A DNA stretch of 64,000 bases from Porphyra umbilicalis (Eukaryota; Rhodophyta; Bangiophyceae; Bangiales; Bangiaceae): the NCBI GenBank assembly GCA_002049455.2, contig KV918774.1:124001-188000 (forward strand), given 5' to 3'. Numbering within the stretch: position 1 is the first letter of the stretch; every line of letters begins with the position of its first letter. Below the pieces are notes generated by a model, which saw nothing but the letters and a program-made list of their open reading frames with translations, had not been told where the DNA came from and made no database searches. Positions 15,311 to 42,955 of the stretch are shown here, piece after piece. The position numbers were made by a program, and so were the translations under genes.

Positions 15311-17314
15311 TCACCAACCCCCGGAGCGAGAACCAAAGTCAGGGTTATAGCCCTGACCGGGATCATCATCGCGCGAGTAATACCCCGGCCCCGAGAAGGT
15401 CGGGGGTGTCGCCGAGGGACCGGTCGCCGTCCCATAAGGGACCGAAATAGCAACACCAGAGCCCGCCCCATAATGGGACGAGGTAGCCGATCCCGAGCCC
15501 GCCCCATAAGGGGTCGGGGCTACCGAACCCGAGGCCGCCCCATAATGGGGCGGAACAGAAGAGCCAGGCCCCACTCCGTAGTGGGGTGGGGAAGGGGGCG
15601 GCGGACGCTGTGGCGTCGCCGGCGAAATACCACCTCTGGTGAGAACCGGGGGTGACGCCATGTTGCGAATGGACCATCCCGCCAAGACGGTGTTGGTCTC
15701 GGCCACGGCGGCGCCATACTCCTCCGCCAAGAGGCGGCAGATCGAGTCGACCGTACTCAAGGAGTACAGCACGTCCGCTTCTCGGTCACCCATAGGGCGT
15801 GACACAATAACGGCCATCTCGTTAAGAAGCCGCACCAAGGTGCGGCTTAGGGCCATCATCTGGGTGTGATCCACCCCGTTGGTGAGGATCGGCGGGAGCT
15901 CCCCTAGGGAGCGGGCCAAGCCATCCGACACCGCGCGCCGCACGGGCCGAGGGGTCCCCAGTTGAGCGGCCCCGTCCCACGAGAACAAGGGAAGGGACGC
16001 CAACGGCGGACCCGAACGTCCCCCAATAAGGGGAACCGACCCTCCTCCGGGGTAGGTACGACGCGACCGACCATAGCGTCCACCCACACGGGGGGTGTAA
16101 GGACGGGAGACCGCCCCCCAAATGGGCGGGGCCAGATGCGGCACCCCCGCGGAGCTCGCGGGAGGCGACGCCGGCCGAGCCGCCGGGGGAGCCAAAAGGG
16201 CCGCCGGACCGTAACGGTTCGGCCCGGCTGTGGCCAGGTCCCGATCAAGGGGACGAAGACGCAGTTCATGAGTGACATCCCTCCTATAAGGGCGGGTGGA
16301 GTCACCAAGGCCCTCCATGAGGACCAAGACCCCGTCATCGTCAAGTACCTTGGCACACCGAAAGACCCCTCGGGGGCTCCCATCATACAGGAGCCACGAC
16401 TCCTTTCCCTGCTCCTCCACAAGGCGGAGGAGCTCTCACCCGGCCTCTAAGAGGGGCCGAGCGGACGAGTCGGCCGAGCACAGTCGCTCGGCCGTGAGCT
16501 CAGCCAAAGCCGTCCGTAGGACCAGTGGAAGACGCAACAGATGGCCGTGGTGGCGGATGCTGCCGACAAAGACGTCGGCCACCTCGACGGCCCAAAGGGT
16601 CGCCAACATAATGTGGTAGGGTCCCCCGAGGACCTCTCCCATGAGCTTGCTGCCACGCAGCGCCACCATCTGCGGCATCCGCGCGGCCATACCGCGCGGC
16701 ACCTCAACCGACGCCCACCAAAGGGGGGCGATCGGATACAGGGCTTTACACCGAGATACCGGAACTTCTCGGACCTCCCGCTGCTCATGGAGCACCAGGA
16801 CGCCCAGGGTAGTGCGAAGCGTCCACTCCCCCAGGGCGCCGGGTACAAAGTACCTGCGGTCCTCCTCCCCCAACTTGGGGGGGGTGCCAGGGTAGTAGTC
16901 CCACGAGCAGTAGGGCTTGTCGCCTACCTCCGGGGAAAGGTCTCGCTCCGCCAAATGGCGAAGCACCTGACACACCCGCCAGTCCTCCTGGCGACGAAGA
17001 TAGGGAGAGTCCGTTGCCGTCCCCTCGGGGACGGCGTACAACTGGCCGTAGTTGGCCCGGATGGTCGTCCATAGACTGACCATGCGGCGGCCCTCAAGGA
17101 CCGCATACCGCTGTTCCACCAGGGACCCCCCGAGGTCACAGGGGAACCGGCGAAAAGAGTCGTCGACGACGGCGGAAGTCGGCCAAGGTGCCGACAGGAG
17201 GGAGGCCAGGGTGCCGTCAATCTCCTCCTCCTCCCCGAGGACGTCACCAGGAGCACCGCGCCGACTGTCGACCGCCATGGCGGCCGTACCGTGGGCCGCA
17301 TCGGCCGACGCCAT
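15311..17314 (-). pseudogene. Gypsy B antisense ORF: conserved accessory protein with HYGxGSG repeats
   Basis: A minus-strand frame between integrase and 3' LTR. The first convincing in-frame ATG is 17314 (MASADAAHGTAAMAVDS), although the frame is open upstream into the LTR. One TGA at 16436-16438 breaks it; the same frame continues to 15311, about 667 codons in all. Shared blocks with gypsy C are WWASVEVPRGMAARMPQMVA against WWSAMEVPCGFPARMLRIVA, LATLWAVEVADV against LATQWVLEVVGV, and EGLGDSTRPYRRDVT against EGLGDLAYPYYVGVT. The C-terminal part has repeats of about 13-14 residues (PPHYGAASGSV, PYGAGSGSA; forward 15411-15600). No known domain was recognised. Confidence 0.78.
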
Positions 17315-17688
17315 CGGACCCCGCGAGACAGGGCCCCAAAGAAGTCCGAAAAGCCCCACCCGTGGGCGGGGCACGAGGTCGGCGAAGAGGGGGAAAGAAC
17401 CCCGGACACGCGCTCTCGGCGCTGTCCCACCTCGTGACGAAGAGGGTGCCCGCGGGACACCCGAGTAGTCCGGTCCCCCCAACGAGGGGGATCGTCTTGT
17501 ATGCCCTGGGGGGGGGATCACCGAGGCCCTCGTGGGGCCCGAGTCCGGGGGCGGCCCGCCAGGATGTCCCACAGAGGGGCCCTGGAGAGGCAAGGCCGAA
17601 TGAGCCGCCGGGGGCTCCCCCTGGCCAGTGTGTGGGCTGTTGGACACAGCCCCGGTTCTGCGAGACGCAGGCCCTAAGGTGGGGAATA

Positions 17689-18456
17689 TGTGGGGGAAAC
17701 TCCCTCTCCTCTGATGACGCGATCCCCCCGGTATGAGCCGGGGGAGGGGCCGCGAGCACACACGCAATGCCCCCAGAGGAAGCGGTGTGCGGCGCCCCTT
17801 CGGGGCGCATTCCAGGTGGCGCTTGGGGCCACCCCCGAGGCTGACATCCCCCTTGCCCAGAGGCAGAGGGGGGCAGGGCCTGACGCGGACGAGGGGCCAC
17901 GCGACCCCTCGATCCTGGCTCCCTAGAGGGGCCTGGAAGCTTGTGGAGGCTCCTTTGGCTGGGGAGAAGCCCGGGGCCGAGATTAGATCTCGGCCACTGT
18001 CGATATCCCACGAGGACTTCGATCGGAGACTTCAAAATCTGGGGATAAGTCCCTAGTGATGTATTGGGCAATTTCAGTCCAAGCTGGCTTAAATCCAGGG
18101 ACCATATCTCTCTTCCAGTGGAAGGGGGTCCCTTGATCCGTGGCAGGGGCCACCAGGACCCCGCATCGGGGACCGTGGCCCGTCGGGCCCCGGCCCCCCT
18201 ACGACCGTCTTTTCCTGGGTCGGGATTGTGCACGTCCTGCGTCTTGTTTCTGAGGGTATATGTGTGTATGCTTTGGGGTCATCGTGCGTACTCGAATAAA
18301 TCAGCGTTGCGTTTGCGTCAGTTCCGGCGTTCTGGTGCGCTCCGCGCCCTGTGATCCAGGCGTTTGTGTGCTTTCTCCTTTGTGTCGCTCCGCATCCTGT
18401 GCTGGGTTTTCTGACGGGGCCGTGCCCCGTCGGCTTTGCGGGCAGAAACCACTACA
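17689..18456 (+). repeat. 3' LTR of gypsy B (768 bp)
   Basis: Aligns with 8108-8875. It is preceded by the purine tract aaggtggggaata. The AATAAA recurs at 18295-18300. Confidence 0.92.
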
Positions 18457-18462
18457 GTCCCC

Positions 18463-19361
18463 GCCCGGCCGACGCGGGGGCCTCGGCAGAACCTGCCCCG
18501 ATGGCAGCCGTGGACGGGGCCCTGCTGGTGGCGGAACCCACCACAGGGCGGGGCGGCCTTGAGGGGGACCCCCCCGAGGAGGTGCCCGAGCCCCCGGCAC
18601 CGAACCCTCCGCGCGTGGCGGATGTCCCGCTGCCCGAGGCTCCGCCGCACCTCCACGAGCGGATCCGGGCGGTGCTCCGCGGGCACGAGGCGATGTGGTC
18701 GGGCCAAGCCCTGGGCGCGATCAAGGCCACGGGGCATCACATTGAGCTCACCCCGGGGGCCAAGCCCGTGCGCGTCCCGCCCCGGCGGGCCAGGCCCAAG
18801 GCGCGAGAGGCGGAGACTGCGGACGTCGAACGCCAACTGGTGGCCGACGTGATCGAGCCGACGTTCTCCGAGTGGAGCTTCCTCGTGGTCCTGGTCCCCA
18901 AGAAGGATGGGACACTCCGGTTCTGCGTGGACTACCGCTTGCTAAATGCCGTATCCAAGCGCGACTCCTACCCGCTGCCGCGCAAGGATGAGTGCATCGA
19001 CAGCCTCAGGGAGGCCAAGGTCTTCTCTACCCTGGACTGCAACGCCTCGTACTGGCAAGTCCTTATCGCCGATGGCGACCGGAAGAAGACAGCCTTCGTC
19101 TGCCACAAGGGGGCCTACCACTACAAGCGGATGCCGTTCGGGCTGACGAACACGCCCGCGACGTTCCAGCGGGCGCTGGAAATCATCCTGTCCGGCTTCA
19201 AGTGGCAAAGCTGCCTGGGTCACCTCGACGACATCATCGTCTACTCCAAGACGCAGGAGGAGCATGTCCAGCATTTGGACGAGGTCCTGGGGCTCCTACG
19301 GGCCGCGGGGGTCACCCTCAAGCTGCCCAAGAGCCGCTTTTTCCGGACGACGGTGAATTAA
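18463..19361 (+). CDS. Gypsy A pol, reverse transcriptase part (ends at a nonsense codon)
   Basis: After gypsy B and its duplicate gtcccc (18457-18462), the A frame runs into RT: IEPTFSEWSF, VPKKDGTLRFCVDYRLLN, VFSTLDCNASYWQ, MPFGLTNTPATFQRAL and the catalytic HLDD (Y replaced by H). Catalytic aspartates are intact. The frame ends FRTTVN followed by TAA (19359-19361), where related elements have Tyr, and the same frame continues with LGHEITLG, so this is a point nonsense change. Between the Gag zinc knuckle and RT there is room for only about 115 codons. None contains a protease signature, unlike gypsy B and gypsy C. Confidence 0.85.
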
Positions 19362-21362
19362 CTCGGCCACGAGATCACTCTTGGCCGCCTCGGCGTGTTG
19401 CAGGCCCACACCAAGGCCCTCCGGGACGCGGCGTTCCCGACAAAGCGTACTCACGTGCGAAGCTTTATTGGCATGTGCAATGTCTTCCGACGGTTCGTCC
19501 CGAACTTCGCGCGGATCGCCACCCCCCTGTCGGACATCATGGGCTCGACCGCCCCGGTCACGGTGCCGCCACCGACGCCGGAGCAGCTGTTCGCCTTCGA
19601 GGAGCTGAAGCGCCGGCTGACGCAGCCCCCTGTTCTCGCCCTCCCACGCGCCGGCCACAAGTATATGTTGGACGTGGACGCGTGCGGTACGCAAGAATGC
19701 GCAGCCCTGCTACAGGAGCAGCAGAAAGGCGGGCTCCGCCCCGTCGCGTACATCAGTGGCGTCCTCGAAGGAGCAGAACGGAACTTCGGTGTGACCGAGA
19801 AGGAGTGCCTCGCCGTCGTGTGGGCCTCCCTCAAGTTGAGAGCCTACCTGGAGGGCGACCGGTTCTTGGTCCGGACGGACCACAACTGCCTCAGGTGGCT
19901 CCTCAACATCGACAGGACGGCACACGGGCGCCTCGCTTGCTGGCGCATGCGCCTGAATGAGCTTGCCTTCGACATCGCGTACAAGCCCGGCCAAACCCAT
20001 TGGCTCGCCGACGAGATTTCCCGGCTGGTCACGTCGGGCACCGACCGCTCGGCCGACGACACGGACCTTCTTGTCTTCGCCGTGACCCGGGCAGAGACGG
20101 CCCGGGGCCTGGAGACAGCCAACTACGTATCCGAGCCGACTACGCGCACCATCGACAAGGGCGAGGTGGCCACGGTACAAGGGGAGGATCCCCTGTGCCG
20201 CAAGGTCATGGAGGCGCTCAACGCCGGTCGAGCGGTGCCGTTCTTCGAGGACAGTGTTGGCCTCGTGTGCCGGCGTGCCACCCACGACGGGGTGGACCAC
20301 TTTGTCGTACCGGTGTCCCTGCGGGAACGTGTTCTGCGGTTGGAACACGAGACCACGTTGGCGGGACACCCGGGGGAGTCCCGGAGGTATGCTGCCATGC
20401 GGCGGGATTACTACTGGCCCGGGATGGCGGCGGACGTCGTCCTTCACGTCCGCAACTACGCAAGCTGCGCCCGCGGCCGCGTCCGGCCACTTCGGGCGGC
20501 AGCCGCCTTGCAGCTCTTCGCAGCCACGTTGCCCTTCCAGGACATCGCCACGGACTTGTTCGGGACGCTGGCCAAGACGGCCGCTGGCAACGAGTACATC
20601 ATGGTCATCACTCACCGGTTTTCCAAGCTGGTATGCGCCATCCCGATGGGTAAGATACGCGCGGTGGACTGCGCCTCCGTCCTTCCGGACTATTGGATCG
20701 GGGCCTACGGTCCCCCTGACCGGGTCCTGTCGGACGGCGGGCCCCAGTTCACCGCGCAATTTTGGCACCAGGTGTGTAACCTGTTGTCCGTCGATGCCAA
20801 GGTGACCACGCCGTCGCGACCGCAGACGAACGGGCAAGCTGAGCGGTTCAACCGCACGATGGGCCGCATCCTCGACCACTACGTCGCCGAGCACCCCACA
20901 ACGTTGGACCAGCTCCTCCCGGCGCTCACGTTGGCGTACAACACGCAGCCGCATGCGGCGACCAAGGTCGCTCCGTTCGAGCTCGTCAACCCGTTGGGGG
21001 CGGCCAGCTGGTCCATCAAGGACCTGACGCGGAGGAGCCGGTACCCGGCAACGGCGCAACGGGGCGCCCACGCCGAGAAGAAGGAGCAGGCCGCCTTCCT
21101 GACGCGCATGGTGCGCCTGATCCCGCGGATCCGGGAGGCCCTGGCGGCAGCGCAGCAGCGGTACAAGCGCAACCACGATGCACGCATCCGGCCCCAACCG
21201 CCTGGGCTGGAAGTCGGCGGGTTCGCCTTCAAGCGGCACCATGACTACAAGGGGAGTAAGCTTGGTCACCGGGCCCAAGGCCCCTTTCGCGTCGTCCGCA
21301 TCGAGAGGCCAACCGCCGTGCTCGACATCAAGGGCGAGCACCGGCGGGAAAACATTGTGCAC
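19362..21362 (+). CDS. Gypsy A pol, RNase H and integrase part (split by a MITE)
   Basis: Same frame as the RT part after the TAA. The RT connection (SFIGMCNVFRRFVPNFA) is followed by RNase H (YMLDVDACG, EKECLAVVWA, VRTDHNCL) and then integrase. The integrase N-terminal zinc finger is HETTLAGHPG...YASCARG, with the first expected Cys of CxxC read as Tyr. The DDE core shows D in IATDLFG, D in LSDGGPQF and E in NGQAERFNR. Basic C-terminal residues RHHDYKGSKLGHRAQGPFRV precede the break at 21362, where the hAT-type MITE is inserted. The chromodomain resumes at 21951. Confidence 0.88.
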
Positions 21363-21942
21363 CAGGCCCTGTCACAAGTATCGTTTTCAGCTTCGGGTAC
21401 GGTATATACAAATCGTTGAATTCGAGTACGAGTACTGGCCACGTATATCTTCACGTGTATCAATACGAAATATACCTTGAAAACACGAGTACGAATCAAT
21501 TCCGAAATTGATTGACTTGGAACAGCTGCCGATCTTTAGCAGCGCCGAGCGCCTATTCTTCCCGAGCATGTCGGATCCGTTCCGTCACTTGAGTCATCCT
21601 GTTTGCGGCGTTATCAACTGCTCGCGTGAGAATTCTGACGGGCGCCCTTTGGCGAGCACACCACGGTTCGGAAAATCCACCCCAACTAGAACTTTTTGTA
21701 TTTAAATCAAGTTCAATTATCAACTGGTACTTAGCGGAGGTGAAATGACATTATTGCACTCGATTGGCGCGCTCTTCTGGGTTTCACTCCGCTCTCGGTC
21801 GGAATCGATAGATACCCACGGCTACCTACTCAATTCTTGATATGGGTGTGGGTGCCTGCCGCCTTGCTGCCTACGGGTACGGGAGTTCAGACACTTACAC
21901 CTGTAAAAACACCTTCTCACATTATACGTATGGTAGGGCCTG
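21363..21942. mobile_element. hAT-type MITE, family 1, copy 1 (580 bp)
   Basis: Ends are caggccct...agggcctg, flanked by perfect 8-bp duplications ttgtgcac (21355-21362 and 21943-21950), the hAT signature. The interior is AT-richer than the surroundings and has no coding capacity. It matches 30270-30851 along its length. It lies inside the gypsy A integrase between the core and the chromodomain. Confidence 0.93.
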
Positions 21943-21950
21943 TTGTGCAC

Positions 21951-22277
21951 CTGGTGCGCGCCCCGTCAGGGCCCCCGGCCGAGCCGGCCCTGCACCCCTC
22001 ATTGGATGCCACGGTCCGGCCCCACGGGCCTAGCCCCGATGGGCACACGTATTACATCGACCAGATACTGGACCATGCCGACGGCGAAGACGGCCGCCTA
22101 TTGGTCAAGGTGATGTGGACCGGATACGAGGAGGCCACGTGGGAGGACGCCTCCGTCGCACCCCACGAAACCCTGCGGCTGTATCTGCGCCGCGCGAGCC
22201 GCCGGGGCCTCCTCCACACGGCGGCGGACCGGCCCCCGGGCGTGACCGGGGACAATGACGCGGCCGCCGAGGCGTAG
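21951..22277 (+). CDS. Gypsy A integrase C-terminal chromodomain
   Basis: Continuation of the integrase after the MITE and its 8-bp duplicate. The stretch YYIDQILDHADGEDG, VKVMWTGYEEATWEDASV has the chromodomain pattern (aromatic, then acidic turn, then VKW-x-GY-x-x-x-TWE). Such chromodomains mark the chromovirus branch of Ty3/gypsy and can steer integration to histone-marked chromatin. The frame ends at 22277 (DNDAAAEA). Confidence 0.85.
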   Translation: MVRAPSGPPAEPALHPSLDATVRPHGPSPDGHTYYIDQILDHADGEDGRLLVKVMWTGYEEATWEDASVAPHETLRLYLRRASRRGLLHTAADRPPGVTGDNDAAAEA

Positions 22278-22359
22278 ACCGCGCCCGCACCCTCGGTCTC
22301 GGCGGAGCCCGGGGCCCCGGCGGGCCCGAATCCGCCGGTTGGCCCGCTCCTCTAGGGGG

Positions 22360-24030
22360 CGCGCCCCAAGGTCGGCCCGCGCCGGGGGTGCGGAGGGCGT
22401 CGCCAGCGGGGCGACACCCCGGCATCGGCCCACAGAAGGTGCGTAACGAGGGGCGTAGCGCCAGTGGGGCGACGCCCCGGGCTCGGCGCGCGACAGGGAC
22501 GCAGCGGAGGGCGTATCGCCAGTGGGGCGGCGCCCCGAACTCGGTGCACGGAAGGTGCGTAACAACAGGGCCTCTCGCCAGTGGGGCAGTGCCCCGGGAT
22601 CGGCACGCGCCGAGTGCGTACGGAGGGCGTAGCGCCAGTGGGGCGGTACCCCGGGATCGGCACGCGCCGGGTGCGTACGGAGGGCGTAGCGCCAGTGGGG
22701 CGACGCCCCGGGATCGACGCGCGAGAGGGACACTAGGGCGTATCGCCAGTGGGGCCGCGCCCCAACGGCGTCGTGGCGCCCGCCGTGACGGAGGGCGTAG
22801 CGCCAGTGGGGCGACGCCCCGGGCTGGGCGCGCGACGGGGGCGCAGCGGAGGGCGTATCGCCAGTGGGGCGGCGCCCACACGGCGTTGTGGCGCCCGTCG
22901 TGACGGCGGGCAAATCGCCAGTGGGGCGGCGCCCACACGGCGTCATGGCGCCCGTCGTCGCAGCGAAGGGCGTATCGTCAGTTGGGCGACGCCCGCGGGT
23001 GCGTGCGGAGGGCGTAGCGCCAGTGAGGCGACGCCCCGGGATCGACGCGCGACAGGGACGCAGCGGAGGGCGTATCGCCAGTGGGGCGGCGCGCGCACGG
23101 CGTCGTGGCGCTTGTCGAGACGGCAGGCGGATCGCCAGTGGGACAGCGCCCCAACGGCGTCGTGGCGCCCGTCGTGACGGCGGGCGAATCGCCAGTGAGG
23201 CGGCGCCCACACGGCGTCATGGCGCCCGTCGTCGCAGCGAAGGGCGTATCGTCAGTTGGGCGACGCCCGCGGGTGCGTGCGGAGGGCGTAGCGCCAGTGA
23301 GGCGACGCCTCGGGATCGACGCGCGACAGGGACGCAGCGGAGGGCGTATCGCCAGTGGGGCGGCGCGCGCACGGCGTCGTGGCGCTTGTCTAGACGGCGG
23401 GCGGATCGCCAGTGGGACAGCACCCCAACGGCGTCGTGGCGCCCGTCGTCGCAGCGGAGGGCGTATCGCCAGTGGGGCGACGCCCGCGGATGCGTACGGA
23501 GCGCGTAGCGCCAGTGGGGCGACGCCCCGGGATCGACGCGCGACAAAGACGCACCTGAGGGCGTATCGCCAGTGGGGCGACACTCCCACGGCGTCGTGGC
23601 GCCCGTCGTGACGCCGGGCGTACCGCCAGTGAGGCGACGCCCCGGGCTCGGCGCGCGACGGGAGCGCAGCGGAGGGCGTATCGCCATTGGGGCGGCGCCC
23701 CGTGGTCGGCACGCGCCCGGTGCGGACCAAAGGGCGTGCCGCCATTGGGGCGGCGCCCCGGAATCGGTACGCGCCCGGTGCCAAGCGGACGGCGTACCGC
23801 CATTGGGGCGACGCCCCGGGATGGGCACGCGCCCGGTGCGGAACGGAGGGCGTATCGCCAGTGGGGCGGCGCCCCTTGATCGACACACGCCGGGCGCGCG
23901 GCCGAGGGCGTACCGCCATTGAGGCGGCGCCCCCACGGCGGCGCGGCGTCCGTCGAAGCGAAGGGCGTGTCGCCAGTAGGGCGGCGCCCCCGGATCGGCT
24001 CACACCGGGTGCGCAGCGGAGGACCCCGCC
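22360..24030 (+). repeat. Minisatellite in gypsy A (about 57-63 bp unit, more than 20 copies)
   Basis: Tandem imperfect units centred on gggcgtatcgccagtggggc followed by gacgccccgggatcg-like spacers. Each unit carries an inverted repeat of the type ggggcgacgcccc. It fills the space between the chromodomain and the antisense gene. Apparent long ORFs in several frames here are by-products of the repeat. Confidence 0.88.
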
Positions 24031-27000: not shown

Positions 27001-27964
27001 CCGGCACGGAGGTGAGGAGGGGCTCACGCTCCACCCAACACTCCAACCCGACGCTCACGTCCCCACACGTCGTCGCCCGCAGCTTCGGCAGCTGACGCTG
27101 CAGCGCGACCAACCACGCGAACCCCGCCGCGCCGTCGACGCAGAACATCTCCGTGACGTCCGGCATTGGCTCCGGAAGAATCACGGCGACCTCATTCACC
27201 CGCAGAAGGCGACGGAAGTACTCGGCGGCGAGCGGGGTGTCGATGGTGGCCAACGCCTTCAAGACGTTCGGCGCCGCGGCCGCCGCCAGGTACCCGCCCG
27301 CCTCGCCGATGGCGAGCATGCGGGTCCACGCCGTGTCGATGGCCGCCGCGTCGTAGGGCCCCGGCATGGCGCCCCCGGACGCGACCCGCAACGTCGGCCA
27401 AGGGCCCTCGCCGTCGACGTCGCAGGCGTCCGCGACCTCGATCGGCAACCCGACGGGAAGTGGAGCCGAGGCCGCCGGCGGCGGTAGCACGACCGCCGTG
27501 GGGACCGGGTCCCGCAGTCCCGGGGGTAGCGTCCACGGCGGCCGTGGCGTCGGCCGCAGATGGTCCCGGTTGGGGACCCGGGCCCATGTCGCGGTCCGAA
27601 GGAGGTTCTTCGCAAACGCCAAGCGCGACGGACCCGCGGACGTCGCCGACGGCGCTGCCGTCGCGGCCCGCCCCGCCGACGCGGGGCCCCGCCCCGGCGG
27701 TCGGCCGTCTCCACGCCCCGCGGCCGCCGCCGCCACGGACGACGCCCCGCCGCCGGACGCTCCACCGGGCGCCTCAGCCGCCGCGGCGCCCTCCGGCTGG
27801 GGGGGGGCGACGGCGAGCGCGACAGCGACGGCGCCTCCTCCGTTGTCGATCGGGGGCACGGCCCCGCCATGGTCGACGTCCGCCGGGTCGCGGCGCCTAC
27901 CGCCTCCACAGCCGCCGCGGCAGCCCCCAGCCCTGGGAGCCCGCCGGTGGCCGCGCCGGCCCAT
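24093..27964 (-). pseudogene. Gypsy A antisense ORF: conserved accessory protein with RGG/YGG-rich tract
   Basis: This minus-strand frame lies opposite to gag-pol. The frame is open from inside the 3' LTR, and the first in-frame ATG is at 27964. The N-terminal quarter is Ala/Gly/Pro-rich. An ordered-looking region follows at about 27600-26340, with NEVAVILPEPMPDVTEMFC and GKEPPTILYAHRGT. Next comes a Gly/Arg/Tyr/Asp-rich tract (about 26000-25460, repeats like DRGYHGRDYHR and GGDDRGYD). One TAA interrupts that tract at 25613-25615 and the same frame resumes. A Pro/Ala-rich stretch and then a shifted frame (24437-24093) encode a C-terminal block, NWGQVTDAMLGWALL. Aligned by eye, its blocks resemble the antisense ORFs of gypsy B and C. 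The function is unknown; the tract resembles RNA-binding, condensate-forming sequences, which is inference only. Confidence 0.7.
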
Positions 27965-28087
27965 ACCGCCGGCGCCTCGATCGTGGCTCGGGCGCGCCGC
28001 CCCGTTGCCGTCCGCGTGACGGGTCCCGCGAGTCGGGCGGACCCCGACATTCACCGCCGGGGACGGCGGTCGCTCAGGAGGGGTTGA

Positions 28088-32170: not shown

Positions 32171-32863
32171 TGTGACGGTCCGTCCAATGGCCCCCACAGT
32201 CGGGGAACCAGATTCCCCGGAAATATGCCCCACTACCACATGTTTCAAACTGTTCCGTTGTCGACCCACCTCTGATGACCTCGTGGCTCACCAACCACAA
32301 CCGCAATCCCATTACTTCCCTGGGATTCGTAACCCCCCCGAGCGGGCTCCCACTTAAGCGCCTTGTTTTGTGTAAATCCGACTTGGATTATCGACTTATG
32401 TTACTCCGCGCCCCTGACCCCGGGGTGCCGCGAGGGTGTCACGTAGCACCCTTCCCCCGCCTCTCATCAAGGCGGTATTCGAAGCTTCGTCCGTCTTTCG
32501 GGTTATGGGCCCCGTGGTCCCTGAGAAGAGAGTTTTCCGAGGCTCCTTTAAGGGTGGCTGAGGAGGGTTTTCCGAGGGTCCTTTGAGGGTGTCTGAGGAG
32601 GGTTTCCCGAGGGTCCAAGGGGAACGGATGGGATAAGAGGGTGAGGCGCGAGTGTCGCCTCGAGGCCTTCGACGCGGGCAAGTAAGCTTCCGGTCACACA
32701 ACTCGTGTTTGTCCCTCGGGGCGCCTTCCCCCGGTCAACGCCGTGCGTGTGTGCTCTTCGAGGTTTTCTTCTGGAGCGGGTATTCCCCGACAGGACTATC
32801 CGGCGAAACGGATTGGCTCAACCTTCCCCCAGCTGGGTGGGGTTGTCTGAGCGTGTTGTCGCA
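32171..32863 (+). repeat. 5' LTR of gypsy C (693 bp)
   Basis: Matches 43549-44241. Around 32519-32620 it carries about three tandem copies of a unit of roughly 35 bp (gaggagggttttccgagggtcctttgagggtgtct type). Following bases are tt then tggtggagcagcaggg, the primer binding site position; A, B and C all read tttggtg here. Confidence 0.92.
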
Positions 32864-33025: not shown

Positions 33026-35255
33026 ATGGCCGATTGCGGGGGTAATGGAGACTCCCCTGGTGTCGAGGTGCCTGGAGCCGGGGAGGATGAGATTACGCCC
33101 CGCGGAGGCGGATCGTCGGTTGACGATCGCCACACCAGTGCCGGCACCACGGATGCGGGTGCCCGCAGGGAGCGGACATTGTTCTAGTTCTTGCCCCAGG
33201 CCTCGATCCGACTGAAACTCGCCCCCCGACAGACGCCCCCTCGGGTAGTACTCACCCCGAGGCGGTCCTGTCGGGTGCTGGCACTCATTTCGGCGTAGAA
33301 CAGCTGCCCGACGTTACCACGTGGGGCGGTGGGTCTGTGCAACCACCGGCACGGGAAGCTGCGGGTGAAAGCTCTAGTGCTGCTCCCCCAGGTTCACGGA
33401 GTGCCAAGGGTGCCCCGGCACTTGAGCACAGCGCCGGAACCCATGGTATCGCTCCCCCGGCCCTCGCGCCCGGTTGGAGATCCCCTCTCGGTGCTGAGGA
33501 GGGGGGGGCGATGCCAGGATCTCTCGAGTGCCGAGAAGCCGTGGCCGAGAACGTTCGGTCTGAAGCAGGGGTTGTCAGGATAAATATCCGATATCTTGGG
33601 CTACTGTAATTGCAAACAAAACGGCAATATTCGACATCTATTTGTGCCAGTAGCTCGGGATATTGACATAGTGACGTCCAGAGCTTCCCGTAGATGGTAT
33701 TTTTTTCTTCAATGGACAATCATGGACGAATATTCTGCGACATATTCCGGAACATATCCGTATTCTGGCCCGGATACGGCCAAAAAAGCGTATTCTGACA
33801 ACCCCTAGTCTGAAGATACCCGATCGCTAATTACGATGTTCATGGGCTCTACGCCCAGGCCCGCTGAGCGGCGGGGCCGAACCCGGCGCTCTTCTCGTCG
33901 GAGGCGACGCGACAACTTGTCGTCGTCGTCGACCACTGATGTCTCCCGCTCGGGGGACGCGTCAGCTGTTGCGGCCCTACTTCGTGCGTTTCGTGCTACC
34001 CCCACGCCGTCGACGGTGAGGGAGGGCACTCGGGGTATTGACCCGAGGGCCCAACCGACTCCTGGCTCGGCTAAGGGTGAGCAAGGCGGGGGAGATGTGC
34101 GAGAGATACCCCGGGGTATTGACCCGGGGTTCCTGACGCAACTCTCCCCCGCGACCGGTCCGGTGGCAGGGGGGTCGCCCACTCTAACCATTCCGACACC
34201 CCCAACTCGGGTGGTGCCACCCAAGATTGTCGTGAACCACACGCACTACCACTTGATGTTCGATTGTGAGACATATGCGTTAGACAACAAGTCGGTTGCC
34301 TACATGCGGCACCAGGCCCGTACTCTGGGCCGGCGCAAGAAAGAGGTTGCTCAGTCCTTCGGGGTAAACGACGAGTGGAATGGTTCCCCCCCGGCCAAGG
34401 TCTTCCGGTTCATGCGCATGTTTGTCAAGGCCTGTGACGACAATAACATCTCCGAAGGCGAAGCCTTCTACATCCTTCAAGACGTCACGAAGGAACCTCT
34501 CAAGTCAGAGGTAATGATGGTTATGCCAACTCGCCGGGCGGAGAACCCTGGCGAGGTCACGTCAGACCTGGAGCTCATCATTTGATGATCCGGCGTCACG
34601 TCGACGAGGCCTCGGTGGCTACTCTAGTCGAAAATCTGATCGTCGCGGTCCAACGGGATGATGAGGAAAAGTTGTCCTTCGCCAAGCGCCTTCACCGCCT
34701 CAACACCGAGTGCGGGTTCATGTACGGGGAGGTACCCGCAAGGGGCGCTTTGTGGAAGGTGTCCACCGCGCGGCGCGCGCCACTGTGCGCGAGCGCAACA
34801 CCCCCGGCATGACTATGGCGGAGCTGGCTCGCGTCGCCCAGACTAAGAGCGACGAACACCGCTGGCTACGACTTGAGCAGCACAAGGAGCGGACAAAGGA
34901 GCGAGAAGCGCTCGCGGAGGAGGCCCGGCTCCGGCGGCAAGCTCGTGCAGCCGCCCTTCCCCGGGTCACTGGGGGAACGCGGGAATACCAACAGCGAAAC
35001 GCCCCCGTCAGGACCGTCGGGGCCGTGGGTGCCCACCCGCCGGGCCCCCGGTACGATGGGTCCCGACCCAAGGCTCCGGGCGGCTCGTTTCCCGGGGGCA
35101 GCGACAGCCCGCGCTACCGCCCCCGACCGAGGGATGAGCCTTCCCGACCGAAATCCCGGATGGGAGAGTACCCTTGCTGGCAGTATGGCCAGCTAAGTCA
35201 TTGCACCGAGGTGTGCCCCGACTTGGACGCACGCCTACGCGGCCGATTGGCCATA
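33026..35255 (+). pseudogene. Gypsy C Gag (frameshifted, split by a MITE)
   Basis: The first ATG after the LTR is 33026 (MADCGGNGDSPGVEVPG). A frame change near 33170-33187 moves it to the frame with VQPPAREAAGESSSA. The MITE at 33566-33807 then splits it; removing the MITE with one 8-bp duplicate leaves the reading frame continuous. The capsid-like part FDCETYALDNKSV, FMRMFVKACDDNNISEGEA (to about 34585) matches gypsy B Gag. Further frame changes follow near 34585 and 34710. The zinc knuckle near 35170 reads CWQYGQLSHCTEVC, with the second Cys replaced by Tyr. Confidence 0.82.
33566..33807. mobile_element. hAT-type MITE, family 2, copy 1 (242 bp)
   Basis: Terminal inverted repeats caggggttgtcag.../...ctgacaacccctа-type ends (right end reads cccta) with 8-bp duplications gtctgaag (33558-33565, 33808-33815). 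AT-rich and non-coding. It is the inverted counterpart of 36882-37123. Confidence 0.92.
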
Positions 35256-35981
35256 CAGTCATTATTAGGTTAAATCCGTACCGATTCATATCCACAGTGG
35301 ATATAACCGGGCCGAAGAACGCACCACGGGCGCCGAGAGAACGGGGAATGTGGACTGCAATCACATTGACGGTCGACATTTTGAACTTATTCTCAGGTAG
35401 GATCAACTTACACAATTCCCAGCTCATGCTGCAGGAATGGAACGCAATGTTGCCGGCGCAGATTGCCCACCGGTCTGCCTGAAGGCGGACTGCCTGCCCA
35501 ACAGGACCAACACTGAGCTCAGACGCCAGCCTGATGACGTTCAGCCTGTTGCTGACAACAAGAACTTGAACGTGTCTTCTCCAGTAGCCATGATGGCCAA
35601 CACGACGCTGCAGTGCGAGTTCGAGAGCGTAAGCGGTGAAGACCATGCGCAGGTGATGCGTCGCTGGGTGGTGGCTGAGACCGATGTTGAGGCCATCGAT
35701 GTGAAGGTTAACGTGGTTTTGGCTGGTGCGGACGATTAACAGTGATGGGGCGTAGTGGGTCGGTACGAGGCACAATCTTCCGTGATCAGGTTCTGCGAAG
35801 GCAAGTAAAATTGGAATTTGTCTCGTCCGAGTTCACCGTAAATGCTCTCTTTCGTACTTCTCTTTCTTCCCAGTAGTATTGAAATGACCTCATGGCAGCC
35901 GATCGCAAGTCGAGTCAGAGGAACCTAAGTGCTGTCAGCTACTGTAAACAAATGGCGATGGATATAACCGAATACTGTCTG
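35256..35981. mobile_element. Candidate diverged TIR element in gypsy C (about 726 bp)
   Basis: The left end cagtcattattaggttaaat and the inverted right end cagacagtattcggttatat agree at 18 of the first 22 positions. The interior has a base composition unlike the flanking gypsy sequence and no recognisable retroelement coding. The flanks tggccata and tagccagt only partly match, so no clear target duplication remains. A small ORF (35437-35739) inside matches nothing I know. The insertion lies between the Gag zinc knuckle and the protease. Confidence 0.45.
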
Positions 35982-36171
35982 TAGCCAGTCGGTGGTCCAC
36001 TCTCGGGACCTCCTCAGGCTCCCGTGATACCCAGCGAGCGGGCCGGCGAGTAACCGTTGCCACTCCCGTTGAGAAATCCAGCTCAAGCGGCGAGGAGTCG
36101 ACGCCGCTTGAGAAGGGGGAACCGCAGACCGAGCCCGAGTGCGGACCCGCCACATCCTCTGAGTCCGAGGA

Positions 36172-37975
36172 GTGAAACGAAGAACCACTGGTGCTAGGCC
36201 CTTCCCGCGGCAATCGGTGGACCCAACCCGGGCCTTGGATGTGATGCCAGTACGCATCCTATCCCGACCCAAGGGTATCCGCCCTCGGGACGCACCCCTC
36301 CCGAAGGGGGTAGGCGGCCAGAATGTGGTGGCCATCCTGAAGGGGTCCGCCTACCAGGTGGCCAGTCGCGTTTGGCTAGACGCGGGGCGTGAGATAGCCC
36401 TACGCGTCATTGTCGACACGGGGTCGTGCGTCTCCCTAGTAAGGGAAGCGCTACTCCCCCGGGAGATGGAGGTAGCGCCTTTAGACGCGGCGACCACCCA
36501 GTTTTTTGACGTGAATGGGGGACTCCTCTTCATCACGGGTACCGTGACTCTTACGGTGCGAGTAGGCACTTTCTCCACCCCAGTCACGTGTGGGGTAGTG
36601 CGTGGCATGTTGGTTTCTCTACTCCAGGGGACCGACTACATTGACGTCCATGTTCCCAACATTTGCGGGCCCAAGGGGTACATCCGGTTACTAAACGGAT
36701 GTAGATTCCCCATCCTCCGTCGGGGTAAGACGGTGTCGTACGCCCGGGAGGACCAACCTCAGTCGGGGGCCGCTAGTGAGGCGGACACTAAGCTGCGCCT
36801 GGCACACGAGGTGCTCCTACACCAGCGGTCCCTGGGATACGTCCCATTACAGACGTCATTCCAAGGGAATGGGGTCATCACCAGGGGTTGTCAGAATGCG
36901 GTTTTTTGGCCGTATCCGGGCCAGAATACGGATATAATCCGGAATATGTCGCAGAATGTTCGTCCATGATTGTCCATTGAAGAAAAAACGACCACCTACG
37001 GGAAGCTCTGAACGTCACAATGTCAATATTCCGAGCTACTGGCGCAAATAGATGTCGAATATTGCCGTTTTGTTTGCAATTACAGTAGCCCAAGATATCG
37101 GATATTTATCCTGACAACCCCTGGTCATCACCCAACGCCATCAAGTGTATGAGCGCCACCGCATGCATGTTGCAACTGGCACCATGGACTGCACCGCCAA
37201 CCAGACGTGATGGGTGGAGGTAACCTATGCGGCGAACACGAATGAGCGACTCCCCAAGGGCATGGACATGGGGCATATGTCGGCCTACTCCGGTACGGTA
37301 GCCGCCATATCCCGAGAGAACTGTGCTGCACTCAGCCCCAGTCCGACCACCTCGCCCGATGCGACGGACCCCGTGGAGGAGCCCCACGTTCATACTTCGA
37401 ACGTGCCCGAGGGGCTGCGGCCTCAAGTGCTTGCCCTACTGGAGAAGCACCGAGCCCTCTGGAGTGGGCACTTGGGCTCAATCAAGGCCACGGAGCACCT
37501 GATCGACTTGGAGCCGGGTTCCAAGCCCGTCCGGCTCAACCCCTACCGGATGAGTCCCCGAACTAGGGAACTCATCAAGGCCCAAGTCGACCGGATGCTC
37601 AAGCTCGAAGTGATAGAGCCCAGCCAGAGTGAATGGACTAGCCCGTTGGTACTCATCCCGAAGCCCGACGGGAGTCCCCGGTTCTGCATCGACTATCGGC
37701 AGTTGAACGAGCGCACAGTACGCGACTCGTATCCATTACCCCGGATGGACGACTGCCTCGACTCCTTAGGAGATGCACAGTTCTTCTCCACGTTGGTCTG
37801 CAACGCGGGGTACTGGCAGATCCCCCTAGCCGAGGAGGATATGCCGAAGACGGCATTCACTTGCCACTGTGGGACGTACCAGTGTACGCGTCTTCCATTT
37901 GGCCTGTGCAATGCCCCTGCCACTTTCCAGCGGGCTATTGACGTGATCCTATCCGGAGTCAAGTGGCAGAGTTAG
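36172..37975 (+). pseudogene. Gypsy C pol: protease and inactivated reverse transcriptase
   Basis: The protease has RVIVDTGSCVSLV (DTG near 36414-36422) and LLQGTDYIDV. The second family-2 MITE sits at 36882-37123. Past it the frame continues with one TGA at 37208-37210. RT shows VIEPSQSEWTSPLV and RFCIDYRQLN, but FSTLVCNAGYWQ has Val where the first catalytic Asp belongs. The YxDD box reads FLEHLIIF, and a TAG stands four codons before it (37973-37975). Three of three catalytic aspartates are thus gone and the enzyme cannot work. Confidence 0.87.
36882..37123. mobile_element. hAT-type MITE, family 2, copy 2 (242 bp, inverted)
   Basis: Ends caggggttgtcag...ctgacaacccctg with 8-bp duplications gtcatcac (36874-36881, 37124-37131). 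It is the reverse complement of 33566-33807 with a few differences. It lies in the protease-RT linker of gypsy C. Confidence 0.93.
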
Positions 37976-39646
37976 CTCGTCTTCTTAGAACACCTCATCA
38001 TCTTCTCCGCCGATGCCGAGTCGCACCTGTCCCACTTGGACACGGTGCTCACCTCACTCGGGAAGCACGAGGTCACCCTCAAGGCACAGAAGTGCCACCT
38101 GTTTCATAACGAGGTGGAGTACCTTGGCCATGTAGTGCGGCCAGGACACTGGAGTGTGAACAAGAAGAACCTCAAGGCCATAAATAAGGCCAGCTTCCCC
38201 CAGACCCAAACCCAACTCAGGAGTTTCTTGGGGATGTGCAATGTCTACCGTCGGTTCATGGTAGACTTCGCTATGACCGCGAAGCCGCTGAACAACTTGA
38301 ACAGCGTGAAGCTTCCGAAGCGGTTGAGTCCCCCTACCCCGCAGGAACAGAACGCGTTCGACAAACTACGCGAACAGTTATGCCACCCGCCCATTCTCGC
38401 GATACCGCGCAAGGAGGGAAAGTACATCATCGATGTGGATGCTAGCTACGACAAGCTAGGGTGCTGGCTACTACAGCAGCAACCCGATGGTAAGTACCTG
38501 CCCGTAGGCCACTTAAGTAAGGGCCTACTGCCGGCGGAGAAGCACTACACCGACACCGAGATTGAGGGACCAGGTGTGGTGTGGGCGGTCGGTTTACTAC
38601 GACCGTACATCGAAGGCACCAAGTTCTTCATCCGGTGTGACCACAAGCCACTGAAGTGTATACTAACCACGACGGCCTGCACCAACAATCGACTCAATCG
38701 TTGGCGCATCCTCCTCTCGGAGTTTGAATATGATGTGGAACACAAGCCCGGCCCCCAACATGCGGTGTCCGACGCTCTGTCCCGCATCCCAACTGAGGGG
38801 CTGGACACGGGACCCATCTCCCCGGAGATACCCACAGTCGGGGTGACCACTCGATCGGGGGCGGAACTCGACCCCCGACTCCCCGAAAACAGGGAGACCG
38901 CCCCCATACCCCTGGGCGAACTAGTCCAGAAGCAGGCGACAGACGAGTTCTGTGAGGGGGTAAAGAAGTTACTTGACACCCCCACACCCACGCGCTTCTA
39001 CGAGATCGCAGACGGGTTGTTGTGCCGTCGCGGACACGGCGAGGAGACCCAGCAGGTAAGGGTTTCCCAGTCCCTAGTCAAGGACGTATTACAGGCAGAG
39101 CACTCGTCCCTCTTGGCGGCGCATCCAGGTGGGACGCGCATGTACCAGACCCTGCGAAACCGATAATACTGGCCCCTGCTAACGATGAATGTGTTCGGGT
39201 GGGTGGCAGCTTGCCCCACCTGTGCAAAGAACCGGCTCATGGGTACGCAGAGTAAAGGGTTTATGAGGTTGTTCCTCGCGACGGAACCCTTCGCAGCACT
39301 GGCCATTGACTTAGTTGGCCTCCTGCCCAGAACCCCCGAAGGATATGAGTATATCCTCGTTATTTGTGACCTATTTACTAAGGTCACTCGGGCGGTCTCG
39401 TTTCGAGACATCACGGCTCTGGATGTTCTCAGCGCATTCCTCAACACGTGCGTTGCTAGCTACGAGATCCCCGATTCAAGTCTATCGAAAAGCGGACCCC
39501 AATTCGCTGCCGTACTCTGGCCAGGGGTGCTCAAGACCCTGGGTTTTTGTTGGGATTCGAAACTTGTACCACTCAGCTACAGCCACAATACCGGTGTGAA
39601 TGGTCCTGAGGAGTTCAAACTTATAGTCCAACAGTATGGACACTAA
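37976..39646 (+). pseudogene. Gypsy C pol: RT thumb, RNase H and integrase N-terminus and core
   Basis: Same frame as the RT after the TAG. VEYLGHVVRPGHW and SFLGMCNVYRRFMVDFAMTAKPL are followed by RNase H (IIDVDASYDKLGCWL, DTEIEGPGVVWAV, HKPGPQHAVSDALSR). A TAA at 39164-39166 falls in the zinc finger (before YWPLLTMNVFG and CPTCAKNR). In the integrase core the first Asp (AIDLVGLLP) is kept, but the second site reads LSKSGPQF where TDNGPQF is expected. About 80 bases of non-homologous sequence follow LGF before the last part resumes in another frame. Confidence 0.85.
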
Positions 39647-40469
39647 CTATGTCACCCCTTATCACCCACAAACTAATGGGCAAGGCGAACGCTTTAATAA
39701 GACCTTAGTTAAGCATCTACGACACTACGTCAGTGACCACATGGTTACGTGGTCCCGATACTTAAGCCTGGTAGTAACGGCTTACAATTCGCAAGTGCAT
39801 ATTAGCACCGGGCAGATCCCTTTTGCGTTCGTAAGCCCTCGACGGCTTACTCCCGTGGCAGTCGAGCGACTTACAGCGGGTACCGACCCCGGGGAGTTAG
39901 TTACCGCCGGGCGAGCCAAGGAGAATTTCCTCCAGCGCCTTGACTCCCTTATCTTCCTAGTACGGGACAGCATGGAAAAGGCACAGGCCCGATACAAACG
40001 AGCCTTCGACAAGCGCGTGCAGACTCACCGCGAGGCCCTCCTAGTTGGAGACTGGGAATTCGTGAAGTCCCACGAGAACGAGGGGGGTAAACTCGTCTTC
40101 AAGACACTGGGACCCTACCAGATCTTGAAGACCGACGGGAGTCGGCTTACAATCGAAACTGACGATGGTATCCGTACCATCAATGAGAACCACGCCATCC
40201 GGGCCCCAGAACCACCCGAGGGGGACCCGGCGTGGGCGCGGGCACTGACCGCATGGCGGGTCCCGTCCCTCCCCAGTAAACCGATTGAGGCTGTCTTTGA
40301 CCGCTTTGTCGGACAGGGGTACGATGACCAGGAGCGACTCATGCTCAAGTTCAGGTGGTTCGGGTATGGACCCCGGGAGGACTCCTGGCACTATGTGGAG
40401 GACCTCCCGGCTGAGAAGGTCCGCCAGCACTGTGCGCGGCACCGGCTCACGATGAGAAGTAGGGTATAA
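39636..40469 (+). CDS. Gypsy C integrase C-terminal part with chromodomain
   Basis: Begins TNYVTPYHPQTNGQGERFNKTL, carrying the integrase catalytic Glu. The GPY module (GGKLVFKTLGPYQIL) follows, and then a chromodomain-like end VFDRFVGQGYDDQERLMLKFRWFGYGPREDSWHYVEDL. It terminates at 40469. Collinear with gypsy B 14250-15180. Confidence 0.85.
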   Translation: MDTNYVTPYHPQTNGQGERFNKTLVKHLRHYVSDHMVTWSRYLSLVVTAYNSQVHISTGQIPFAFVSPRRLTPVAVERLTAGTDPGELVTAGRAKENFLQRLDSLIFLVRDSMEKAQARYKRAFDKRVQTHREALLVGDWEFVKSHENEGGKLVFKTLGPYQILKTDGSRLTIETDDGIRTINENHAIRAPEPPEGDPAWARALTAWRVPSLPSKPIEAVFDRFVGQGYDDQERLMLKFRWFGYGPREDSWHYVEDLPAEKVRQHCARHRLTMRSRV

Positions 40470-40606
40470 TACAACTAACAACCCCCAGTACGGGGTACCT
40501 CTCGCACACACCCCCGACAATAGATCCAACCCAACTAGGGAGAAGCACGATGGGGGCCGGACTACCCATAGCTCAGCGCCCCGGCACCTCACTCGAACCA
40601 ACGTAC

Positions 40607-42955
40607 CTACTTCCCACCCAGCGAGTGCGGGCGGTCGTTGCAGACGTACCCACCGAACTTGTTGTAACCCGAGTGGTCCCCCGGGTACTTCTGGGCCGAC
40701 CCCCTGTCCGAGGGGCCCGGCCCCCACGACGAGCGCGGCACCCTACTCGGTGCCGCTCCCGCCACGGCGTACCCCTCAGCGAAGAAGGGGAAGCCGCACC
40801 CATGGTACGACGCGGCCGAGCCAGCACTCTCGCCGGCGTACGTGGCCCAACTGGAGCCCCCGCCCGCCGAAGCCCCCGCGGGCGCAGCCGCCACCCGCTG
40901 GCCGTGCCCCTTCAAGCGGGAGCTCATCTGGTACCCGATGGCCTCAGGGGTGGTGTCCACCAAGAACTGCTCGGCTGAGGCAGACCGGGGGGACGAGGAG
41001 TCCCGCAGTACGGCCCCCGCCCCCCGGGTATCCCACGCCATGGTGTTTACCAGGGAGGCAACTATCGCCTCCACAGGGGCAGCCCCAAGCGCCCCCGCCG
41101 CACTTGGGTAGGTGGTCGCCAAGGCTTGGGCGCACCGCAAGGTGACGTACCCCCAGCTGAGGCTCTGCCCCTCCCCAAGGGCCAAGTAGTACGGGACCCC
41201 CGGCGGGGCAAACGTCGGACGGCCCGACCGCCGCACGGGGGACGCCCCCGCCCGGGTGGTCCGCCGGACAGCGCCTCCACGAGCAGGGGGGCGCTCGGAA
41301 GTACCTCGGGTGCTCCTGCGCTGCTGGGGGGCACTTGCCCCCGGCGCACCCCAACCCGAGTCGGGCAAGGGCGACGTCGTCGTTACCCCCACATAGTAGG
41401 GGTAGGCCAGGTCACCCAGGCCCTCACGGAGGCTTAAGCGCCCGGGCACCAGGCGTTTGTCACAGTGGACAAACGCTCGAGGCGTCTCGCCCTCCTCCGC
41501 GCCAACTCGGCGGGCCAGGTAGGGCCCGGCCGCATCCCAGTCCAAGGACTGGTGGAGGTCCAGCAACTCGCTGAGGTACGCAAGCGCGTCCAGGCCTGCC
41601 CCCACCGCCACGTTGGCGAGGCGCAGCCGCACCAGACGCCCCACTACGGCGGCTGGCAGATGCCAGAGGTACCCCTTAGTGCGGGCAGAGTCATACCACA
41701 CCCCTACTACCTCAAGCACCCACTGGGTAGCGAGGATGGCCGCCGCCGGGGTAGACTCCCCCCGGCGGAGCGCAGTGCCAAAGTAGGCCACTATGCGCAG
41801 CATCCGGGCCGGGAACCCGCAGGGCACCTCCATGGCCGACCACCAGGACGGCGTCGGGACGTAGTATGCCCGCCGCGCCGAGGTGTGGACCTGGGTGCTC
41901 TCTACTTGAGAGGCCCGCACCAGGATGCCTGACGCCTCCCGCACCCAGCGTTCGGTGCGGACGTCCTGGTGGTGGAAGTGGAGATCTCTCTCCCCCTGGT
42001 ACAAGAAGCAGGAACACGCCCACTCCCACGCCATGACGAACGGCACGTCGTCGGCGGTGGCCCCGTCAATGACGTCGGACAGGCGCACGACCACGCACTC
42101 CACCCACGGCGCGTCCCCCGCCTCTGGTAGAGCGCAATGGTAGGTCGTCACCCCGGCAGGCAGTTCGTACAGCACAAGGTGGCGCGCCAGCCAGCGCTGC
42201 CAAGCCGGGCCCTGCTTGGGCAGCGGGATCGCGGAGTAAAGCGTCCGCAAGCGGCACTCCCCCATCTGACTGGGGGCTGCCGGGGGCGTCCACTGGACGA
42301 ACGCCCCCGGCCCCGCAAGCCTCGCCTCCTCCACTGCCGGGAGGCGCCCCGAACGCGGCACCGGCCGGGAAAACTCCCACTCTATGGGGTCATCCTCAGC
42401 CTCGCCCGGCGCCGCCTCAGCCGCCGGGGAAGTACCCGGCCGGCTGGGTGGCAGCGGCTCGCGCGCCGCCGCCGTGCGACGCCCGGCCGCGTCCTCGCCA
42501 GCCGACCGCGTCGCCGCACTCGACAGGCGCGAGTCCAACGCCGACCCCGCCGTCGACTTGAACCGGCGAGGGGGCGGCAGCGGTTAAGTCGCTTGACTCC
42601 CCGCCGCCGAGGACTCCCGGCTCGGGGGCGCGCCGTTGGCCTGGCGGGACCGGCGGGCTGCCTTGACCCGGGACGCCGCCACGGCCGCGCCACTTGACTT
42701 GGTGGCGCCTGCCGGCGTCGCAGGTGCAGACGCCGCCGCCCCGCCATCCCGCGGCGTGGCCGCCGTCGAGCCCGTGGCCCTGGGGGCGCCCATACTGCCC
42801 GACGCCCCGCCCACCCGCGGGGAACCCGCCGCAGGGCTGCCCGACGTGGCTGTTGCCGACGTAGGCGTCCCACCCGGCGACGGCGGGGCGCGCCTGGCAC
42901 TTGGGGAAGCCATCTCCTCGGTCGGCTCCACTGCCGTTGACCGCGAGGAATCCAT
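40607..42955 (-). pseudogene. Gypsy C antisense ORF: conserved accessory protein, one stop codon in about 783 codons
   Basis: A minus-strand gene between integrase and 3' LTR. The ATG at 42955 starts MDSSRSTAVEPTEEMASPS. One TAA (42584-42586) interrupts a disordered N-terminal region, and the same frame then runs unbroken for 643 codons. The ordered core has WQRWLARHLVLYELPAG, WWSAMEVPCGFPARMLRIVA, ILATQWVLEVVGVW, GETPRAFVHCDKRLVPG and REGLGDLAYPYYVGVT. It shares these blocks with gypsy B and more weakly with gypsy A. The C-terminal block LSWGYVTLRCAQAL matches NWGQVTDAMLGWAL of A. The tail is Gly/Tyr-rich (YPGDHSGYNKFGGYV). Function unknown. Confidence 0.8.

Follow-up and report, generated by a model that had tools for sequence, protein, structure and literature searches.

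In the window analysed here, a 64,000-nucleotide stretch of Porphyra umbilicalis contig KV918774.1 from a phycobilisome-bearing red-algal genome, a long frame runs on the minus strand, opposite gag-pol, in each of three Ty3/gypsy retrotransposons (A, B and C), raising the question of whether these frames encode a protein and, if so, whether it is one protein common to all three, as a first-pass annotation had claimed. The placement reported there, antisense between pol and the 3′ LTR, is seen in the window elements and in copies of each family. Reviews of antisense accessory genes in LTR retrotransposons deal mainly with plants (PMC7264820), and within the one open literature collection searched no published antisense ORF from a red alga came up.

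Table 1. Features of elements A, B and C (window positions)
Feature	Position	Strand	Basis or remark
Element A, whole	5135-28674		B nested inside A
A 5′ LTR, TGTAGCAC...GTGCTACA	5135..5722	+	95% identity with the LTR at 28087-28674
A gag-like frame, zinc-knuckle-like end, split by B insertion	5724..8105	+	ORF list
Element B, nested in A	8108..18456	+	self-BLAST; GTCCCC at both flanks
B LTRs	8108-8875 and 17689-18456	+	98.4% identity, self-BLAST
B gag and pol (RT, RNase H, integrase, weak chromodomain; several frames)	9555..15180	+	Pfam
B antisense gene	15311..17314	-	one in-frame stop, 16436-16438
A pol, chromodomain-like stretch at end, split by 580-bp MITE-like insert	18457..22277	+	Pfam, sequence
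MITE-like insert within A pol	21363..21942	.	8-bp duplication TTGTGCAC
57-bp tandem array, A pol stop to A antisense gene	22356..24022	.	TRF
A antisense gene	24093..28050	-	stop 25613-25615 and frame changes in window copy
A 3′ LTR	28087..28674	+	self-comparison, sequence
Second copy of MITE-like insert	30270-30851	.	duplication GTGCGAGC
C 5′ LTR	32171..32859	+	96% identity with 43549-44237
C gag and pol, broken, internal inverted repeat	33809..40469	+	Pfam; gag 39.7%, RT 52% to B
C antisense gene	40607..42955	-	one in-frame stop, 42584-42586
C 3′ LTR	43549..44237	+	96% identity with 5′ LTR

Element A as a whole is flanked by the 5-bp target duplication ACCAA, read from the sequence, and element C by the 5-bp duplication GTGGG. 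Pfam recognises RVT_1, Integrase_H2C2 and rve in the B pol, with Chromo below its cut-off, and RVT_1, RT_RNaseH and Integrase_H2C2 in the A pol, where Chromo (E 1e-4) is again below cut-off. The B gag was assigned by eye and by its likeness to the C gag, and the zinc-knuckle call on the A gag was made by eye because Pfam returned zf-CCHC_2 only, at E 0.19. A tandem array lies between pol and the antisense gene in A; B and C have none there, their antisense stops lying 131 and 138 bp, respectively, from the pol stops. TRF found a further array in the B leader (9222-9439) and reported arrays in C in the LTRs only, and GC-rich tandem arrays are common throughout the window. Positions 21357 and 30262 were rejected as the A LTRs, since a MITE-like repeat of ~580 bp lies at both sites, with an 8-bp duplication at each; hAT elements also have an 8-bp duplication. 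A genome search with this repeat gave at least 40 matches (40 of 51 candidates scored), and by eye most of the other matches listed lie far from the pol rows.

The antisense gene is interrupted in all three window copies. The B and C frames lie where the first-pass annotation had put them, with one in-frame stop each; its start for the A frame did not hold, as the gene reaches 28050, the position matching the start of those copies whose start is open, and contains a stop and frame changes. Many copies of all three families carry the gene, the copies having been collected by the antisense query itself. Open frames of 667-679 aa are present in 8 of 20 B loci, and relatives of the B protein in public protein sets are 50-94% identical.

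A codon-level comparison of the minus frame across copies had been proposed as a check, and it shows selection in each family, with a context-corrected omega of 0.42 in A (18 loci), 0.54 in B (20 loci, one being the reference's own copy) and 0.68 in C (18 loci). The sense controls gave 0.50 for the C integrase (17 of 19 loci) and 0.68 for the B chromodomain end (19 of 20 loci), the flank-plus-LTR controls gave 0.92 and 0.93, and values for single copies spread over 0.30-1.09 in A, 0.39-0.98 in B and 0.52-1.63 in C. In every family constraint is strongest on the antisense frame of the six, the pair counts behind the codon-level and six-frame comparisons being non-independent. The antisense protein is constrained about as strongly as the element's own pol parts, and because selection on it resembles that on the enzyme parts, the elements very likely use a previously undescribed accessory protein. 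With selection scored per frame against pol and LTR controls in several red-algal families, the layout is seen to be wider than the plant cases and under protein-level constraint. The substitution rate along B and C did not mark out a promoter. In the B flank-plus-LTR control, stop gains numbered 7 against 33 expected, yet the nonsynonymous/synonymous ratio is neutral (0.92).

The B and C proteins carry the shared motifs from which the first-pass annotation had related them, and they align by BLASTP (E 2e-15 with SEG) and by hhalign, whose alignment covers 292 columns in the N-terminal part (E 1.5e-23); the C-terminal parts alone gave no match (E 0.92). In a six-by-six frame comparison of B with C the antisense/antisense pair reached E 4e-21, the sole other pair under E 0.9 being its mirror frame, which reaches 2e-5 and contains 23 and 15 stops. 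Judged by these alignments, the two proteins are homologous over their N-terminal domain; B and C are 30% identical in the antisense protein versus 52% in RT. Because B and C are also related in gag (39.7%), RT and RNase H (57%), the simplest reading of how both come to have the gene is whole-element descent and not sharing across unrelated elements.

The claim of one protein common to the three elements was borne out for the B/C N-terminal domain; A groups instead with a distant sister family, A2f, and its link to B/C is undetectable by sequence. The A and A2f proteins, 27-38% identical (pol, 53-66%), are homologous. The A-to-C matches noted earlier are not significant by BLASTP, by hhalign (0.032 and 0.17) or by HMMs with decoys. 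Apart from a match in the glycine-rich tail (E 0.001 with SEG, 0.004 if SEG is off), BLASTP gave E values no better than 0.62. Between A and B, BLASTP gave 0.06 and hhalign 0.0029 over 31 columns and 0.0067 over 37, with probabilities of 11% and 6%, so that in the pairwise profile comparison B-C is significant and A-B and A-C are not. A profile HMM of A scored the best of 89 B/C proteins at 4.9 bits, against 7.3 in 890 shuffled and 4.3 in 89 reversed decoys (top-tenth means 3.6, 1.0 and 3.0, respectively), and the C-terminal part of A alone found no match among the B/C C-terminal parts. Homology of A to B/C, sought by BLASTP, own-copy profiles, deeper profiles and decoy-tested HMMs with no significant result, is unproven, and because the profile of A has little depth (Neff 1.6) this null is absence of evidence. 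It is conceivable, though we would not expect it, that A/A2f and B/C are two branches of an ancient fast-evolving, element-specific antisense regulator gene (anti-silencing or copy-control), diverged past detection and each adapted to repeats or LTRs in the element that carries it.

The position of the gene relative to pol is fixed. Wherever integrase was in reach, it lies opposite the gene, in 19 of 19 such loci for B and 17 of 17 for C (20 and 19 examined, respectively), and among pol rows with an antisense match within 15 kb the gene is opposite and downstream in 12 of 13 for A, two of the 12 being pieces of one pol, and in 39 of 39 for A2f. Antisense and integrase distances among 17 C copies are correlated (Mantel r 0.92, exceeded by 0 of 5000 permutations); the gene has descended along with the elements. 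It runs towards gag-pol from a start close to the 3′ LTR and ends beside the pol stop or, in A, beside the post-pol array.

The A protein has an N-terminal domain, a Gly/Arg/Tyr-rich tail and a C-terminal domain, and the antisense proteins as a group have variable low-complexity tails rich in G/P/S/Y, with peptide repeats; Gly/Arg richness in part reflects GC-rich DNA. In agreement with the earlier statement that no described family fits, Pfam and PDB sequences gave no relative beyond weak single matches, no recognised DNA- or RNA-binding domain and none of the domains known for capsid, nucleocapsid or targeting functions. In Pfam, a few individual members of two of the protein alignments matched weakly (best E 0.053); these matches, and two in the PDB (E 0.28 and 0.64), were judged to be chance. 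No bZIP match was found by Pfam among the 36 and 9 proteins scanned, and PF04195 (Transposase_28) had 0 matches at E ≤ 1 in six frames of the whole genome. Five proteins were checked for a clustered basic NLS-like motif and for a strong transmembrane segment and have neither (best 19-residue hydropathy 1.4-2.0, the B stretch containing acidic residues); antisense and without such a segment, the gene does not resemble a retroviral Env-like ORF. In viral contigs, 0 of 32 pattern-matching stretches encode a relative.

The mechanism that we tentatively favour, taken whole at somewhat less than even probability, is that each family's minus-strand accessory protein acts in trans as a nucleic-acid-associated regulator. 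An antisense transcript would begin in or next to the 3′ LTR and be translated. The protein, made up of an N-terminal domain that is likely folded, a further C-terminal part and a variable tail that is rich in Gly/Ser/Tyr or Gly/Arg/Tyr and carries short peptide repeats, may act on its own element's nucleic acid by regulating expression or RNA/cDNA handling. The model follows HTLV-1 HBZ, where such a mechanism is known, and plant antisense ORFs (Grande gene23 and Retand TRP28 proteins), where a regulatory role is proposed (PMC7264820, PMC11963269). Function is testable with unbroken copies and the B-C pair with its conserved core.

Chance or shadow ORFs are suggested by the base composition, as a GC of 0.61-0.78 across the antisense genes accompanies many long frames on both strands. 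This explanation, already thought inadequate in the first-pass annotation, was rejected by the six-frame constraint, by a context-corrected omega below that of the flank-plus-LTR controls and by the frame-specific B-C homology of the six-by-six comparison, and the open B frames and their relatives in public sets also speak against it; its probability is negligible, and the frames are almost certainly a real protein gene. A role for the antisense RNA itself, as dsRNA copy control with the frame incidental, would suit the convergent layout, and dsRNA has been discussed in connection with plant antisense ORFs (PMC7264820). However, the synonymous bias, specific to one frame, and the homology of B and C at the protein level require that the product be translated, and since the codon-level result largely refutes an RNA-only reading we consider it highly improbable.

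Two further alternatives accept the protein and differ in what it would do. As an assembly, packaging or nuclear-targeting factor it would become part of the Gag particle or the pre-integration complex instead of controlling expression, which is consistent with its low-complexity tails and its travelling with integrase in the Mantel test, and chromatin targeting is in play because the A and B integrases have weak chromodomain matches; none of the domains known for such functions was recognised in the protein, and we consider this reading unlikely. A sequence-specific anti-silencing factor binding family-specific repeats is proposed by analogy with VANC proteins, which combine conserved domains with variable repeat regions and have targets in tandem repeats (PMC5735166). 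The faster divergence of the antisense protein than of pol (A/A2f) or RT (B/C), the variable tails with peptide repeats and the arrays in A and the B leader point this way, but no Pfam family matched, C has arrays reported in its LTRs only and such arrays are common in the window regardless, and we regard this reading as rather improbable.

Of the systems compared with the favoured trans-acting regulator, HTLV-1 HBZ carries a bZIP domain and VANDALs are DNA transposons. The A, B and C proteins match neither bZIP nor any other Pfam family, and their likeness to HBZ is that of a minus-strand gene close to the 3′ LTR (PMC11963269; promoter, PMC7264820). VANC, though encoded by elements of another class and compared in sequence through Pfam only, is likewise transposon-encoded, with a conserved domain and a fast repeat-rich variable part (PMC5735166). 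Retand-type plant ORFs share the antisense pol-to-3′ LTR position and conservation across many copies, and about half of Retand elements, like A, have a tandem array in that region. In contrast, Retand is described as a non-chromovirus, whereas A and B have weak chromodomain matches (none in the C piece scanned); its antisense ORF has the domain PF04195, which had no match in this genome, and in B and C the stretch from pol to the antisense gene contains no array. Outside plants, Boty of Botrytis cinerea is alike by description, with an antisense ORF between pol and the 3′ LTR (PMC7264820).

Each of the three Ty3/gypsy elements in the window (A, B and C) carries its long minus-strand gene opposite to gag-pol, starting about 40 (A), 375 (B) or 590 bp (C) from the 3′ LTR. 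The gene is broken in all three window copies, but other copies in the genome frequently have open frames: B frames run 667-679 aa from a start codon in 8/20 loci, five of 19 C loci hold a single frame to the query end (residue 656 of 658) starting at residue 1 or 25, with a sixth reaching residue 646, and eight of 19 A loci have a frame of at least 1000 aa within the stretch fetched. The extent that the first-pass annotation gave for A was too small; the true element is larger, with B nested between its gag-like frame and pol (GTCCCC on both B flanks), and its pol is interrupted by a 580-bp MITE-like insert before continuing. TTTGGTG directly follows the 5′ LTR in all three elements, and the internal inverted repeat of C marks an insertion or rearrangement.

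Positions of features in the window
Feature	Position	Strand	Remarks
Element A LTRs	5135-5722 and 28087-28674		95% identical; ends TGTAGCAC/GTGCTACA; target duplication ACCAA
A pol end	22038-22277		chromodomain-like; below the cut-off for Pfam Chromo (E 1e-4)
A antisense gene	about 28050 to 24093	minus	57-bp tandem array separates gene from pol stop
Element B	8108-18456		LTR pair 98.4% identical
B leader, 5′ LTR to gag	9222-9439		48-bp tandem array
B antisense gene	17314-15311	minus	its stop 131 bp from pol stop
Element C	32171-44237		LTR pair 96% identical
C internal inverted repeat, 244 bp	33566-33809 and 36880-37123		94.7% identical
C antisense gene	42955-40607	minus	its stop 138 bp from pol stop
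MITE-like repeat, ~580 bp	21363-21942 and 30270-30851		8-bp target duplications; short inverted repeats CAGGCCCT/AGGGCCTG at ends
Fragment adjoining A	2395-5135		Ty1/copia pol-like, judged by eye
Inverted copies of that fragment, far window end	61987-63720		94-97% identical
GC-rich minisatellite between A and C	29743-32156		long; 85-bp unit; split by MITE-like repeat copy

That one protein is shared by all three elements, as originally proposed, holds, over the N-terminal part, for B and C, whose profiles match over 292 columns (E 1.5e-23) and whose residues V245, V248, L259 and L295 (P0001 numbering) are invariant across 36 aligned B and C proteins, but not for A, which matched neither in BLASTP, profile and HMM comparisons. 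Homology of A with B and C could nevertheless be lost from view through divergence, because the antisense proteins of A and its distant sister family A2f (27-38% identical) diverge beyond pol (53-66%), and the integrase/RNase H of A is only 35-44% identical to that of B or C. Among ∼5.8 billion predicted proteins (∼8000 candidates scored in each search) the B, C and A proteins have 69 (down to 50% identity), 20 and 8 relatives, none with a source-given name; several B relatives start M(A)S, as does the window frame.

Searching the genome (83.8 Mb in 665 contigs) returned at least 77 matching pieces for B, at least 71 for C (67/315 candidates scored) and at least 111 for A (300-residue query piece, A2f included), all lower bounds on pieces rather than copy counts. 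The stretches examined extended to integrase at 19/20 B and 17/19 C loci, and in 36/36 of these it is on the strand opposite the antisense gene. Pairing positions from separate antisense and pol searches placed the gene opposite and downstream in 12 of the 13 A pol rows with an antisense match within 15 kb (two of the 12 being pieces of one pol) and in 39/39 such A2f rows; the one A row that does not fit is on contig C112, where an additional pol lies near an antisense gene better matched to a different pol.

The codon-level check across copies that the first-pass annotation had called for found the antisense frame constrained. Median Nei-Gojobori dN/dS over pairs with dS >0.03 is 0.40 for B (of 230 pairs), 0.51 for C (of 211) and 0.34 for A (of 216). 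After redistributing substitutions across sites sharing the same trinucleotide, to remove mutational context, omega relative to a single reference copy of each family comes to 0.42 for A, 0.54 for B and 0.68 for C. The sense controls give 0.50 (C integrase) and 0.68 (chromodomain end of B), and flank plus LTR gives 0.92 in B and 0.93 in C. Copies taken singly reach 1.09 in A, 0.98 in B and 1.63 in C, which would be expected if some are dead. The observed/expected ratio of stop-making changes is 0.40-0.56 for the antisense genes, 0.26-0.32 for the sense controls and 0.97 for the LTR control of C; by contrast, the B flank control (17320-18451), covering the antisense frame upstream of its start and through the LTR, gained 7 stops versus 33 expected (0.21), although its non/syn ratio is neutral. 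When copies are compared in pairs, none of the six frames is under stronger constraint than the antisense frame in any family (0.59, 0.58, 0.43); next comes the mirror sense frame with the same third positions (0.70, 0.67, 0.48). B-C similarity is 4e-21 in the antisense frame and weak (2e-5) in the mirror.

An antisense accessory gene in this layout is already known from the plant element Retand, where PMC11963269 gives 97% of clusters with TRP28 in the pol-to-3′ LTR region. TRP28 was not found in this genome, searched whole in six frames; the genes here form an antisense protein family that has no Pfam match, comes from another host group and shows a selective signature that was measured directly on its copies.

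Because the gene converges with gag-pol and starts within about 40-590 bp of the LTR, one may propose a candidate antisense promoter at or near the 3′ LTR that would drive the minus-strand gene. PMC7264820 reports such a promoter at the 3′ LTR of HTLV, and for gene23 of the plant element Grande an own promoter upstream of the gene. The proteins combine a hydrophobic-rich N-terminal part, a second C-terminal part and a low-variety tail rich in few residues (Gly, Ser, Pro and Tyr in B and C; Gly, Arg, Asp and Tyr in A). They lack a strong membrane segment, and neither Pfam nor PDB yielded a relative. We favour a putative trans-acting protein with a regulatory or nucleic-acid-handling role; the rival readings are that it would serve assembly or targeting, or act against silencing.

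Window GC is 0.56-0.78 in 2-kb steps, a range that may fit Porphyra-like algae. Searching the genome for the phycobilisome linker gave 12 matches above cut-off (C665 has four, C407 has two, and six more contigs have a single match), which makes a red alga the very probable host. For the MITE-like repeat, at least 40 matches are listed across the genome.
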